Source: Bacillota bacterium (GTDB lineage: Bacteria; Bacillota; UBA5301; JAMCQP01). Taken from it: 64,000 nucleotides of DNA. Each line of letters begins with the position of its first letter. Position 1 is the first letter of the stretch. Location of the stretch: NCBI GenBank assembly GCA_023381695.1, contig JAMCQP010000039.1, positions 66,151-130,150 on the forward strand, read 5' to 3'. The notes beneath the pieces are model-generated. The model was not told the origin of the DNA. It saw only the letters and a program-made list of their open reading frames with translations, and did no database searches. Below are positions 11,181 to 17,589 of this stretch, piece by piece. The position numbers were made by a program, and so were the translations under genes.

Positions 11181-11522
11181 TTACATTCCGGCAGCAGGCA
11201 CTCTCAGAAAGTCGCCGGGCCTTACGATTGGGCTTTGCAGGCGATTGACGGAACGAATCTCATAGATTAATTTACGGGGATCCCTCCCCTCTTCTAATTG
11301 CGATTGGGCAATAGACCATAATGTGTCGCCTTCTTTCACCACCACTACCTTGTATTGTATCTGATGCCCGGCAACAGCCAGCGAATAAACTTTGGGGACA
11401 AACCACCATCCCGCCGCAAACAGCAAAAGCGCCATAAGCACAAGGACTCCCCTGAACCCTTTATCTTTGGCCTTTTTCTTTTGAAGGATCTGCCGCCCCT
11501 TTGGCCCGGTCACATACAACAT
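11181..11522 (-). CDS. YneA-like membrane LysM protein (probable SOS division inhibitor)
   Basis: 113 aa: a basic N-terminus, one transmembrane helix (about 26-42) and a C-terminal LysM peptidoglycan-binding domain (about 58-108, Y-K-V-V-V-V-K-E-G-D-T-L-W-S-I-A). In Bacillus subtilis the same architecture, divergent from lexA, is YneA, which blocks division during the SOS response. Here too the gene is divergent from lexA and its promoter contains a LexA box (see 11608-11636). GGGGGAGAGG precedes the ATG. Function is inferred from architecture, position and box. Confidence 0.8.
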   Translation of the reverse strand: MLYVTGPKGRQILQKKKAKDKGFRGVLVLMALLLFAAGWWFVPKVYSLAVAGHQIQYKVVVVKEGDTLWSIAQSQLEEGRDPRKLIYEIRSVNRLQSPIVRPGDFLRVPAAGM

Positions 11523-11607
11523 CCTCTCTCCCCCTCAACGCGAATAGCCGTTCTTGGATCGCCGGTTCCCTCGGAACACCAGTTGCCGGAACCTCCGTTT
11601 GATTTGA

Positions 11608-11636
11608 ATTATATCAGGAACAGATGTTCACGTCAA
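11608..11636 (-). promoter_or_regulatory. Promoter with LexA box for the YneA-like gene
   Basis: On the minus strand TTGACG (11636-11631), 17-nt spacer, TATAAT (11613-11608). The palindrome GAACATCTGTTC (11618-11629) fills the spacer and fits GAAC-N4-GTTC, the core of the Gram-positive SOS box. Confidence 0.8.
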
Positions 11637-11662: not shown

Positions 11663-11701
11663 CGAACAGGCGTTTGCAAAAACGCAAAGATGTGGTATAA
11701 T
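11663..11701 (+). promoter_or_regulatory. lexA promoter with LexA box
   Basis: CGAACAGGCGTTTG (11663-11676) matches the Bacillus SOS consensus CGAACRNRYGTTYG at every position. It overlaps a -35 of TTGCAA (11674-11679), 16 nt before TATAAT (11696-11701). Binding would block polymerase, giving lexA autoregulation. Confidence 0.85.
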
Positions 11702-11766: not shown

Positions 11767-12375
11767 ATGTCAGACCTTTCTTCTCGCCAGACTCAGATTA
11801 TGGAGTTCATCAAACAGGAGATCCGCAAAAAGGGATATCCGCCTTCTGTACGGGAAATCGGCCAGGCGGTCGGCCTTCGTTCAAGCTCCACGGTTCACAG
11901 TCATTTAAATAAACTCGAGGAAATGGGCGTGATCCGGCGTGATCCAACCAAGCCGAGGACCATCGAGGTTTTGGATGGAGTGGATGCCGTGCGAAAGGAT
12001 CTGATCAACGTCCCCATTGTTGGACGCGTGGCGGCGGGCCAGCCGATCCTGGCTACTGAAAACATCGAAGATTACTTCCCCTTGCCCAAAGATTTTACCT
12101 CCACGGGCGAGGCATTTATCCTCCGGGTTCGCGGTGAGAGCATGATCGAGGCTGGAATCTTTCACGGTGACTACGTTGTCGTACAGCCACAAAAGACGGC
12201 CAACAACGGCGAGATAGTCGTGGCCCTTCTGGAAGACGACGCCACGGTGAAGCGGTTCTTTAAAGAAAAGGATAAGATCCGTCTTCAACCGGAAAACTCC
12301 CGGATGGACCCGATCTACGCCGAGAGTGTAACCATCCTGGGAAAGGTTGTCGGGGTGATCCGGAAGCTGCATTAA
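11767..12375 (+). CDS. lexA: LexA repressor
   Basis: SOS repressor that self-cleaves when bound to RecA filaments. 202 aa: winged-helix DNA-binding domain (1-70, recognition helix S-S-S-T-V-H-S-H-L), cleavage site A90-G91 in V-A-A-G-Q, then the S24-type protease with S125 (G-E-S-M) and K162 (T-V-K-R-F). AAAGGAG precedes ATG 11767. Its own operator lies upstream; two further matching boxes are in this window (11618-11629 and 16758-16769). Confidence 0.97.
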
Positions 12376-13369: not shown

Positions 13370-14317
13370 TTATCCTTCCCGCCCCAGGGCCAGCCGCAGT
13401 AGCATTTCCACCAGATCGGGAAAAGCGATTCCTTCCGCCCGGGCGGCATCCGGCACCAGGCTGGTCTCGGTCATGCCCGGCAAGGTATTGATCTCCAGCA
13501 CAAATGGTTCCCCATCCGAACTCCTGACAATCAGGTCGACGCGGGCAAAGCCGCGGCAACCGATGCTCTTGTAAGCCCGCAACGCCAGTTCCCTGGCCCT
13601 GGCCTGCGGCGCCTCCGGCAGGCGCGGCGGCATAATATGCTCGCTCATCCCTTTGGTGTATTTTGCCTCATAATCATAAAAAGCTGTCTTGGGCACAATC
13701 TCGATGAGCGGATAAACCCTGGCCTGGCTGTTGCCGATTACCGTGGCGGTTATCTCCGTACCTTTGATGTACTCTTCCACCAGGACGCTTTCGTCATAAC
13801 GAAACGCTTCTTTTAAAGCCCCCCATAGTTCATCCCGGCTCTGAACAATGGTCACCCCCACCGTGGAGCCTGAGGCATTGGGCTTAACAACCATCGGCAG
13901 GCCGACCTTTTCCAGGATTTTTCGGGTTAATGAGCCCTGGTCCTGTTTTTCCAGATCCTCCTTATAAACCACATCGTCGGCCGGTGTGGTAATCCCTTCG
14001 TAGCGGAAGAGTTTCTTGGCCATCACCTTATCCATGCCCAGCGCGCTGGCCAATACACCGGAGCCGACATAGGGAATCCCCATCAACTCCAACAGCCCCT
14101 GCATGGTGCCGTCTTCGCCGTATTTACCGTGAAGGGCTATGTAAGCCACATCCACCCTGGCCTTCTTGAGGTTCTCCACCAGGTTTTCATCCACATCAAA
14201 CTCCGTCACCTCATGGCCTCTTGAACGCAAGGCCTGGCTGACCTGCTGCCCGGTACGCAAAGACACCTCCCTTTCCGACGAACGGCCGCCCATGATCACC
14301 GCAACCCGCATCTTCAA
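13370..14317 (-). CDS. ddl: D-alanine--D-alanine ligase
   Basis: Joins two D-alanines with ATP for peptidoglycan precursors, using the product of alanine racemase (alr at 39.5 kb). 315 aa ATP-grasp enzyme: N-terminal G-G-R-S-S-E-R-E-V-S, A-L-H-G-K-Y-G-E-D-G, the ATP loop K-P-N-A-S-G-S-T-V-G and the C-terminal metal site E-I-N-T-L-P-G-M-T. It starts at TTG behind AGGAG, two codons before an ATG. It ends in its own terminator. Confidence 0.96.
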   Translation of the reverse strand: MKMRVAVIMGGRSSEREVSLRTGQQVSQALRSRGHEVTEFDVDENLVENLKKARVDVAYIALHGKYGEDGTMQGLLELMGIPYVGSGVLASALGMDKVMAKKLFRYEGITTPADDVVYKEDLEKQDQGSLTRKILEKVGLPMVVKPNASGSTVGVTIVQSRDELWGALKEAFRYDESVLVEEYIKGTEITATVIGNSQARVYPLIEIVPKTAFYDYEAKYTKGMSEHIMPPRLPEAPQARARELALRAYKSIGCRGFARVDLIVRSSDGEPFVLEINTLPGMTETSLVPDAARAEGIAFPDLVEMLLRLALGREG

Positions 14318-14362
14318 TTTGCTACACTCCTATCGACTTGATTGCTTTTATTTGAGGTAAAG

Positions 14363-14539
14363 CTATTCAATGACTTCGTAGACGATTAAACTGACCCGGC
14401 CGTCCTCCCCGGAACGGGCCATGCCAAAGATGAGGTTCTTGTCCTTGAGGATCTTGTTCAAGAAGGTCACCAGCAGGTGTACATCGCCGTTTACTGCAAA
14501 ACTTTCGGATCCCAGAACCTCGATCCGCGGCTCAGACAT
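14363..14539 (-). CDS. YpmA-like small protein (DUF4264)
   Basis: 58 aa. The pattern I-E-V-L-G-S-x-x-F near the start, then L-N-K-I-L-K-D-K-N-L-I-F-G-M-A and a C-terminal beta strand V-S-L-I-V-Y-E-V resembles the YpmA/DUF4264 family of small Bacillota proteins with no known function. GGGGGAG lies 5 nt before ATG 14539. It sits between ddl and a small membrane protein on the same strand and is probably co-transcribed with them. Confidence 0.75.
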   Translation of the reverse strand: MSEPRIEVLGSESFAVNGDVHLLVTFLNKILKDKNLIFGMARSGEDGRVSLIVYEVIE

Positions 14540-14554
14540 TTGACTCCCCCACCT

Positions 14555-14746
14555 TCACCGGAATAAAAAATATAGCAACATGCTGAAGACCAGGCTGTAA
14601 TAACCCACAATGGTCGCTTGCAGGCTCCGTACATAGGCCCTTGAAGGCCTCCAACCGTTACTGCTTAACACTATGCCAAAAGAAAGCAGAAGTATGCCTA
14701 ACATCGATAAAAGCAGGGCGCCCCACAACAGATCCCGCAGAAGCAA
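14555..14746 (-). CDS. Small two-helix membrane protein
   Basis: 63 aa with two hydrophobic helices (about 5-28 and 42-62) joined by a short basic loop N-G-W-R-P-S-R. It starts at TTG 14746, eight nucleotides after GAGGGG. It precedes the YpmA-like gene by 15 nt. No family recognised. Confidence 0.6.
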   Translation of the reverse strand: MLLRDLLWGALLLSMLGILLLSFGIVLSSNGWRPSRAYVRSLQATIVGYYSLVFSMLLYFLFR

Positions 14747-14806
14747 AGTTATCGCCCCTCTCCCCTGTGTGTACTATATCATATGACGCAGAGAGGGGAG
14801 AGGTTT

Positions 14807-15493
14807 TTATGGACTGAAGGAGCGGAGCTTCCTCCCCTCCCGGATCCAGTTCCAGTACCGTTTGGGAAGAACTCTCATGGCCCGGGAAATGTCCAGCCGC
14901 CCTTTGATGATCTGCGATTCGTAATACGCCTCCCAGAGGGTCGCATAGTAATCCCCGGCGCATTGCTCCGCGTTCCGCCCTCTGCTCTCTTTCCCGATCT
15001 CCTCCCAGAACTCCTCCTTGACCAGTCTTACGCCATAGTTCCATTCATAGATCCCCCGGCCGGTATCCAGGATAATGCGGTGCCCTGGAAAACGGCGAGC
15101 GAAATGGGCAAGCACCAGATCCACCAGGTTGTAGCGCATGGGGGCTTTGCCGATCAGTATCGGTCGCCCCTTTCCGGAATAAGGCTCCAGCCTGATCAGG
15201 CCTTTTAACCTGGAAAGTTCTCTGGAAACCGCCCTGGCCCATTGATAAACCTGGCGGGCCTCCGGGGAGGTCTTTGCGTAAACATATGGCAACCCCTCGC
15301 GCAAAGCCTGGCGAATCACCTGCGCGATCACATAGGAGGCACCTGGCGCCCCGGCCCGCAGGGCATATTCCAGAACGCCAAGGAATCTCCTCCTGGCCCT
15401 TGGATCCTCCAGCCACCCGGAATGCCGGCCGGTTTCGGCGGCAAGAACCGACGTCAGGATTGTTGAGGCATTCTTACCAGGGAAGGCCGCCAT
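14807..15493 (-). CDS. DUF4130/TIGR03915-type DNA metabolism protein, partner of radical SAM protein
   Basis: 228 aa. Matches my memory of the DUF4130 family, which is nearly always encoded beside a particular radical SAM protein and is sometimes fused to a uracil-DNA-glycosylase-like domain; its biochemistry is unproven. Visible marks: central R-L-E-P-Y-S-G-K-G-R-P-I-L-I-G and C-terminal Y-Y-x-x-L-W-x-x-Y-Y and R-M-R-V-L-P-K-R-Y-W-x-W. The frame opens at 15529, but ATG 15493, nine nucleotides after GGGGAGG, is the better start and overlaps the radical SAM stop by 20 nt. Same operon, apparently SOS-controlled. Confidence 0.85.
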   Translation of the reverse strand: MAAFPGKNASTILTSVLAAETGRHSGWLEDPRARRRFLGVLEYALRAGAPGASYVIAQVIRQALREGLPYVYAKTSPEARQVYQWARAVSRELSRLKGLIRLEPYSGKGRPILIGKAPMRYNLVDLVLAHFARRFPGHRIILDTGRGIYEWNYGVRLVKEEFWEEIGKESRGRNAEQCAGDYYATLWEAYYESQIIKGRLDISRAMRVLPKRYWNWIREGRKLRSFSP

Positions 15494-16700
15494 CGGCAGG
15501 CACCTCCCCGTCCAAAACCGATAAATCAAAGAGCCCGAGCTGTTTCGGCGCCGTTTCCGGTTTTTTTGAACGCCCGTCCAGCAATAAAAATGGCGCGGCC
15601 CTCCCTGTCACCACTCCCAGGTTCTTCAACTCCTCCAAATCCCGGATCCGGTAGGTGCGCCTCAGGCTCAAGATCCGCCTGGCGGATAAAGGCCCGATGC
15701 CCGGCACCCGCAGCAACTGACCCAGGGAAGCCTTATTCACCTCCACCGGGAAGGCTTCCGGACGGCGTAAAGCCGCGGCGGCCTTGGGGTCAATCTCCAT
15801 GGGCAGGTTGCCATCGCGGCCAAAAGGGATCTCCTCATAGGCAAAGCCGTAGGTGCGCATCAAAAATTCGCTCTGGTAGAGCCGGTGCTCGCGCAAGATC
15901 GGCACCACCGGCCCGTTTTCCAGCGGGGTCCCGGCGATTGGCTGGAAGGCGCTGAAGTACGCGCGCTTCAGGCTGACTTCCCGGTAAAGGCGGCTGACGG
16001 CGCCCAGGATCTCCGCATCATTCTCGCCGGCGGCGCCCACGATGAATTGAGTGGTCTGCCCCGCCGACAGCCGGACCTTTCCTTCTCTCCTGCCGGCCTG
16101 CACCTTGCTTACCCAGCGCATCCGCTCCAGAAGGTCCTTTTCAAAGTCCTTCCTGCGAGACAGGTTCTTCAACCGGCCGGCGCTGGGCGCTTCCAGGTTG
16201 ATGGAGAGCCGGTCGGCAAGTTCCGCGGCCCGCTGAATATAATCCTCGCCGGATCCCGGCAAGATCTTGAGGTGGATATAACCGCCGAACCGGTAACGTT
16301 CCCGCAGGATCTCCGTGGTCTTGAGAAGATCCTCCATGGTGGCCGCCGTGTTTTTGGCCACCCCGGAACTCAAGAAGAGCCCCTCCACATAATTTCGCTT
16401 GTAGAACTCCAGAAAGAGCCCGGCCAATTCTTCAGGCTGGAAGCTGGTCCGGGGAACATCGCGGCTGCTGCGGTTCGGGCAGTAAAAACAGTCGTTCACG
16501 CACTCGTTCGTCAAAAGAACCTTGAAAAGGGAGATGCAACGTCCGTCTGGCAGGAAACTGTGACAGCAACCGGCCGGGGACAAATTGCCGATCCGGCCCC
16601 GTCCAGCCCCTCCGGCGCCCGAACCGGAGGTGGCCGACGAGGCGCAAACATCGTACTTGGCGGCCTCACCAAGGATCGCAAGTTTGGCCAGGGTGTCCAT
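15474..16700 (-). CDS. Radical SAM protein, putative DNA modification/repair (TIGR03916 type)
   Basis: 408 aa. The radical SAM cluster motif C-V-N-D-C-F-Y-C (CX3CX2C) lies near residue 70, with further cysteines just before it (C-C-H, R-C). The TIM-barrel core follows, with L-F-L-S-S-G-V. The C-terminus carries helix-hairpin-helix DNA-binding motifs (L-L-R-V-P-G-I-G-P-L-S-A-R-R-I, about 325-340). Family knowledge: it pairs with DUF4130, suspected in DNA repair, reaction unknown. ATG 16700 behind GAGG is preferred to GTG 16709. The promoter at 16750-16778 contains a LexA-type palindrome. Confidence 0.9.
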   Translation of the reverse strand: MDTLAKLAILGEAAKYDVCASSATSGSGAGGAGRGRIGNLSPAGCCHSFLPDGRCISLFKVLLTNECVNDCFYCPNRSSRDVPRTSFQPEELAGLFLEFYKRNYVEGLFLSSGVAKNTAATMEDLLKTTEILRERYRFGGYIHLKILPGSGEDYIQRAAELADRLSINLEAPSAGRLKNLSRRKDFEKDLLERMRWVSKVQAGRREGKVRLSAGQTTQFIVGAAGENDAEILGAVSRLYREVSLKRAYFSAFQPIAGTPLENGPVVPILREHRLYQSEFLMRTYGFAYEEIPFGRDGNLPMEIDPKAAAALRRPEAFPVEVNKASLGQLLRVPGIGPLSARRILSLRRTYRIRDLEELKNLGVVTGRAAPFLLLDGRSKKPETAPKQLGLFDLSVLDGEVPADGGLPW

Positions 16701-16749
16701 CCCGCTCACCTCTTGTTACCCCGCTTGAACCCCAACCATCTTGCCCCTG

Positions 16750-16778
16750 ATTATATAGAACCCCAGTTCGTTTGTCAA
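16750..16778 (-). promoter_or_regulatory. Strong promoter with LexA-type box for the radical SAM/DUF4130 operon
   Basis: TTGACA (16778-16773), exactly 17 nt, TATAAT (16755-16750): a full sigma-A consensus. The spacer contains GAACTGGGGTTC (16769-16758), fitting GAAC-N4-GTTC; the four central bases do not fit the stricter RNRY. Confidence 0.8.
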
Positions 16779-16818
16779 CCACTTATTTACTAACTACTGC
16801 GCTGGCCAACGCCGGGAA

Positions 16819-17589
16819 CTAATTCTCCAACGGCCAGGTCCAGCTCTCCAATTCCTGTATCAGAGCGTGCTTGGTCAGATCAAAATGGATCGGCGTCACC
16901 GAGATCAGATTGTTCCTGATGGCCACTGTGTCCGTATCAGGGTCTTCGTCAAGATCGATTACTTCCCCCGCCAGCCAGTAATAGACCTTCCCACGGGGGT
17001 CGGTGCGCCGGTCGAAGACATCCTTGTAGCGCCGGATGCCCAGCCGGGTAATCTGCACCCCGGCGATATCCTTCTCTTCCAGGGAGGGTATGTTGATATT
17101 CAGCAAGGTATCCGGGGGAAGCCCCCGGGTGACAATGTTGATAGAGGCGATCCGGGTGAATTTGGCGGCAAAAGCGTAATCGGCTTCCTCCACCGTGGCC
17201 AGCGATACCGCAATGGACGGTATCCCCAGGATCACCCCTTCCAACGCCGCGGATACCGTCCCCGAATAAAGAACATCGGTTCCCAGATTGGGGCCGCGAT
17301 TGATACCGGAAACCACCAGGGCCGGCTTCTTCTTGAGAACCACCTCCGCCCCCAGCTTAACGCAATCAGAAGGCGTGCCATCCACCGAATAGGCTTTTAC
17401 GCAGCTGTCATCGCCAAATTCCATCTCTTGCACCCGCAACGGGTGGTGTACGGTAATCGCATGGCCGGTGGCGCTCTGCTCCCGGTCCGGCGCCAGAATA
17501 GTCACGTTCCCGATCTTGCAGAGTTCGTGCGTGAGCGCCCTGATTCCGGGAGCAAAGATGCCATCATCATTGGTCAAAAGGATCTCCAT
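16819..17589 (-). CDS. surE: 5'-nucleotidase SurE
   Basis: Metal-dependent phosphatase that removes phosphate from nucleoside monophosphates and survival-related substrates. 256 aa. The family start L-L-T-N-D-D-G-I (metal-binding D8-D9) is followed by A-P-D-R-E-Q-S-A-T-G-H and S-G-I-N-R-G-P-N-L-G with Y-S-G-T-V-S-A-A-L-E-G. Downstream of the radical SAM promoter region but on the same strand; its own promoter was not identified. Confidence 0.96.
   Translation of the reverse strand: MEILLTNDDGIFAPGIRALTHELCKIGNVTILAPDREQSATGHAITVHHPLRVQEMEFGDDSCVKAYSVDGTPSDCVKLGAEVVLKKKPALVVSGINRGPNLGTDVLYSGTVSAALEGVILGIPSIAVSLATVEEADYAFAAKFTRIASINIVTRGLPPDTLLNINIPSLEEKDIAGVQITRLGIRRYKDVFDRRTDPRGKVYYWLAGEVIDLDEDPDTDTVAIRNNLISVTPIHFDLTKHALIQELESWTWPLEN

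Follow-up and report, generated by a model that had tools for sequence, protein, structure and literature searches.

A radical SAM/DUF4130 gene pair with a conserved LexA-type operator: a predicted SOS operon of Bacillota

A radical SAM gene and a DUF4130 gene lie together in the genome of a Bacillota bacterium, on a 64,000-nucleotide stretch of DNA (the whole stretch analysed, here called the window) that also carries lexA, and the question raised by this locus is whether the pair is controlled by LexA. We report that the two genes are predicted to form a two-gene operon of the host LexA (SOS) regulon, a reading to which we give a probability of roughly 0.86. The original prediction had placed the pair in this regulon, and it is upheld here by the occurrence of LexA-type boxes upstream of 59 of 91 orthologues, by the fixed register of the operator and by its co-occurrence with LexA in the genomes compared.

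COG4277 is presumably the radical SAM/HHH family of the operon. SOS control has been predicted for a COG1573-COG4277 operon in Bacteroidetes (PMC8565304) and, as cited in the same paper, reported for Verrucomicrobia and Alphaproteobacteria. For the same gene pair as in the window, CAC3343-CAC3344 of Clostridium acetobutylicum, LexA control was independently predicted earlier, in a study of one species under butanol and butyrate stress where the neighbour was termed a protein of unknown function (PMC3828012). Moreover, an SOS gene-neighbourhood analysis, the only paper in the literature searched that mentions DUF4130 by name, lists it as a predicted mutagenesis-related enzyme and describes its partners as SplB-like radical SAM repair enzymes (PMC3765255). 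Since SOS control has already been predicted or reported in several phyla, the present result extends an existing idea and opens no new one.

The features of the locus are collected in Table 1. The radical SAM gene probably starts at ATG 16700 (AGAGGTG, then 6 nt) rather than at GTG 16709, and the DUF4130 gene probably at ATG 15493 (GGGGAGGTG, then 7 nt), where it would overlap the 3' end of the radical SAM gene. The upstream neighbour of the operon is surE, which has the same orientation, so the promoter region is shared with no divergent gene. Directly downstream of the DUF4130 gene there is a 63-aa hydrophobic reading frame (14555-14746, minus strand) that could share the transcript.

Table 1. 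Features of the window related to the predicted LexA control of the radical SAM/DUF4130 pair
Feature	Position	Strand	Remarks
YneA-like LysM gene, divergent from lexA	11181-11522	-	LysM; PRK14125 47.1 bits, below the cut-off of 60
LexA-type box GGAACAGATGTTCA in the promoter spacer of the YneA-like gene	11617-11630	.	12.6 bits; promoter 11636-11608
LexA-type box CGAACAGGCGTTTG upstream of lexA, touching its -35	11663-11676	+	14.1 bits; 0 mismatches to CGAACRNRYGTTYG
lexA, proposed regulator	11767-12375	+	TIGR00498 252.8 bits, cut-off 110.95; LexA_DNA_bind and Peptidase_S24
DUF4130 gene, short TIGR03915 form	14807-15529	-	PF13566, 76 bits, gathering cut-off 27
Radical SAM gene, TIGR03916 with C-terminal HHH_3	15474-16709	-	420.9 bits, cut-off 343.5; PF04055, PF12836
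Promoter TTGACA-17-TATAAT of the predicted operon	16750-16778	-	12/12 matches
Predicted LexA-type operator CGAACTGGGGTTCT (14-mer)	16757-16770	-	Perfect GAAC-N4-GTTC core, in the promoter spacer

Membership of the radical SAM protein in TIGR03916 is supported by its score above the curated cut-off, by its CX3CX2C motif and by its HHH domain. Six of its cysteines are invariant, C70-C74-C77, which form the CX3CX2C motif of the SAM cluster, together with C22, C49 and C58; some gene starts extrapolated from BLAST ran into a stop codon, and these genes were omitted from the radical SAM alignment and their "gaps" of ≈1250 disregarded. The three additional cysteines precede the motif, in a stretch where the structure model has low confidence (≈60) and where a second Fe-S cluster is possible. 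The model as a whole has a pTM of 0.85 and its best PDB fold matches are HydE, BioB, HydG, LIAS and ThiH. With SplB-like enzymes the protein shares the CX3CX2C motif and the link of a radical SAM enzyme to DNA damage, but an identity as SplB spore photoproduct lyase was rejected: the family matches are TIGR03916, ThiH and LipS2, and SplB is absent among the best 50 fold matches listed.

The DUF4130 protein scores 80.1 bits against TIGR03915, below the curated cut-off of 112.25, with the N-terminal 66 profile positions unmatched, and it is assigned to the wider Pfam family PF13566 alone. It is a short form (14810-15493, minus strand) that lacks the YDGSF N-terminus and several variable stretches of most Bacillota relatives. 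The structure model has a pTM of 0.83 and a fold search of the PDB gave no significant match; the DHH-phosphoesterase look-alikes are non-significant (8a8k, E = 0.027; RecJ, E = 0.21; TM ≈0.35), and we make no claim of a nuclease. Of the 91 Bacillota genomes analysed (see below), 83 have a DUF4130 gene after the radical SAM gene, and the partner varies between 242 and 372 aa, a short length that speaks for a pair independent of a fused uracil-DNA glycosylase (UDG).

The full-consensus promoter with a palindrome in its spacer that had been proposed for the operon is present, and it is the sole promoter-like site found in the region 14300-17000. Its -35 (TTGACA, 16778-16773) and -10 (TATAAT, 16755-16750) are separated by 17 nt on the minus strand, and GAACTGGGGTTC at 16769-16758 lies inside this spacer, i.e., the putative operator overlaps the core promoter of its target. 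Compared to the Bacillus-type consensus CGAACRNRYGTTYG the core is perfect and there are three mismatches in 14 positions: the centre TGGG breaks the central RNRY at two, and the third is the last base. On a motif learned solely from 70 lexA upstreams the box scores 7.6 bits, with the loss located in the four central bases.

The LexA of the host is intact, carrying both the DNA-binding and the S24 domain. Boxes had also been claimed for lexA and the YneA-like gene, and we located CGAACAGGCGTTTG and GGAACAGATGTTCA between these two genes, the latter ≈5.1 kb from the operon box; the lexA promoter is at 11673, and a third, weak box, CGAATAGCCGTTCT, is present at 11541. Elsewhere in the host genome SOS-type boxes were found at recA (AGAACATCAGTTTG), at uvrB (CGAATACCTGTTCG) and between the divergent dinB and ku genes (AGAACGTATGTTCC). 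The recA box scores 14.5 bits against 7.6 for the radical SAM box, yet it too shows three mismatches to CGAACRNRYGTTYG and likewise breaks RNRY, which means that a non-RNRY centre occurs elsewhere in the host regulon. The box between dinB and ku (L191:1500-1513; host contig C87, about 34956; 14.6 bits) suggests that in this host SOS control may extend to Ku as well as to polymerase IV.

By motif score alone the operon box is unremarkable, as 7.6 bits are reached by approximately 3% of control upstreams. A perfect core is expected by chance in ≈0.0012 of 150-nt upstream regions, and at one fixed position with a probability of ≈8e-6. There is no genome-wide excess of perfect GAAC-N4-GTTC cores in the 3.76-Mb host genome (30 occurrences compared to 52 for the control pattern), and the case for the box consequently rests on its position and on the orthologues. 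Taken by itself the box is only modestly above chance; it is the comparative evidence, read from the genomes described below, that makes LexA control very likely.

The class-level sample comprised seven genomes, of which the host alone passes the TIGR03916 cut-off, the others having fragments, marginal matches or none, and conservation was therefore examined at the phylum level. Of 399 genomes drawn, 90 exceeded the cut-off, and 91 were analysed, including one (G050) just below it. In 59 of these, representing 31 of 43 families, the radical SAM gene is preceded by a box of at least 13 bits, compared to one of 268 upstreams of other long reading frames from these loci; among dinucleotide shuffles the proportion is 0.9%. 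In many genomes the box sequence is CGAACATATGTTTG or close to it. Conservation of the palindrome among relatives had been suggested as a check, and the prediction survived it, with the register fixed as well. Specifically, the arrangement TTGAC-N4-GAAC-N4-GTTC-N2-TATAAT is exact in the window and in five relatives (L052, L053, L054, L056 and L060) and nearly so in L062 and L063, where TTTAC and GTTT are the sole differences. No perfect GAAC-N4-GTTC core was found upstream in the relative L017.

Nearly all of the nearest homologues, and the majority of the sampled Bacillota, retain the operator in position and half-sites. In a comparison of seven representatives, identity is 100% and 88% in the half-sites and 100% in the -10 box, against 42% in the four central bases and 29-32% in the 40-nt flanks. 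A fixed register with unrelated flanks is a phylogenetic footprint, and within it the window box takes exactly the place expected of a functional operator.

Two groups of genomes show other arrangements. In family f87 (L099-L105) a AGAATATATATTCG-like palindrome is conserved ≈53-64 nt ahead of the radical SAM gene instead of the standard box; as the f87 lexA promoters also deviate, it may be a variant LexA site. No DUF4130 gene was detected just downstream of the radical SAM gene in L038, L040, L066 and L070 (family f54), L064, L081 and L110; the f54 members, L064 and L081 are also without a box of at least 13 bits, and L110, where a contig end is nearby, has a box of 19.2 bits. Loss of the DUF4130 partner and loss of LexA control may thus go together.

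LexA was searched for in 79 of the genomes, and a full LexA was found in 73 and was missing from six (three incomplete assemblies and three at least 98% complete). A box of at least 13 bits is present in 52 of the 73 genomes with full LexA compared to none of the six without (Fisher p = 0.001; 0.018 by family), and the 21 genomes that have full LexA and no such box include the host. In the genomes sampled, the occurrence of the box tracks the presence of LexA.

The relative weakness of the window box raises the possibility that LexA controlled the operon in an ancestor and that the window copy has decayed, binding LexA too weakly and leaving expression constitutive from the consensus promoter. 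With 7.6 bits it is the weakest recognisable box among the nearest homologues (13.9-20.7 bits in those having one), and the central bases are off consensus in both half-sites. The concern of the original prediction about a centre that departs from RNRY is therefore partly borne out, but the host recA box departs from RNRY as well, with as many mismatches, and the window box has lost none of its eight core bases and keeps the exact register, as it would not under drift. We regard decay as unlikely, though it is the strongest of the alternatives considered.

That the palindrome is a chance match within a strong promoter, read by no regulator, would agree with its low motif score and with the lack of a genome-wide excess of the core, but hardly with a register that is fixed and half-sites that are conserved between unrelated flanks, with the contrast between orthologous and control upstreams, or with the small probability of a perfect core at one fixed position; we consider it very improbable. 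Conservation by itself does not identify the binding protein, and the palindrome could in principle be read by another repressor of similar site preference. The motif, however, was trained on lexA promoters only and nevertheless matches 59 of the 91 radical SAM upstreams, and none of the six genomes that lack a full LexA has the box, leaving this the least probable explanation. Control by LexA is accordingly the reading that we retain.

The promoter, the operator, its register, the wide conservation and the co-occurrence with LexA are all properties of the sequences compared, and they are consistent with the following mechanism. LexA dimers would bind CGAACTGGGGTTCT between the -35 and the -10 and bar RNA polymerase from a strong promoter; upon DNA damage, RecA filaments on the damaged DNA would trigger LexA self-cleavage, and the operon would be derepressed. 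Since the two genes overlap, their translation is probably coupled, and the HHH-bearing radical SAM enzyme may then process a lesion with the DUF4130 protein as its partner.

Viewed against known systems, the operon box has the palindromic GAAC-N4-GTTC core and the overlap with the core promoter in common with Bacillus-type LexA boxes, but differs from these in its three mismatches, mainly in the central RNRY. In relation to CAC3343-CAC3344 of C. acetobutylicum, the box in the window lies in the promoter spacer and has an off-consensus centre, and conservation has been followed over 43 families. The COG1573-COG4277 operon is likewise a predicted or reported two-gene SOS operon, presumably with a radical SAM/HHH member; its partner, however, is a uracil-DNA glycosylase protein whereas here it is DUF4130 alone, and the LexA motifs differ. 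Judged from its sequence, the window operon is a further case, with an off-consensus box, of a type of SOS operon that was already known. What is new is the breadth over Bacillota families, together with the fixed register of the operator, its link to the presence of LexA and the independence from a fused UDG.

The SOS link of the pair adds to the existing support for a role in DNA repair and is not the first such support (PMC3828012, PMC8565304). We favour, by a small margin over even odds, the broader view that in much of Bacillota the pair belongs to the core of the SOS response independently of UDG, with an operator register fixed in the group nearest the window, that DNA damage is its native signal, and that its reaction likely repairs one specific kind of DNA lesion. 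The finding of a LexA-type box in 31 of 43 Bacillota families, with no UDG fused to the pair, narrows the search for the substrate to DNA damage, and suggests mitomycin C or UV for inducing these widespread enzymes in assays.
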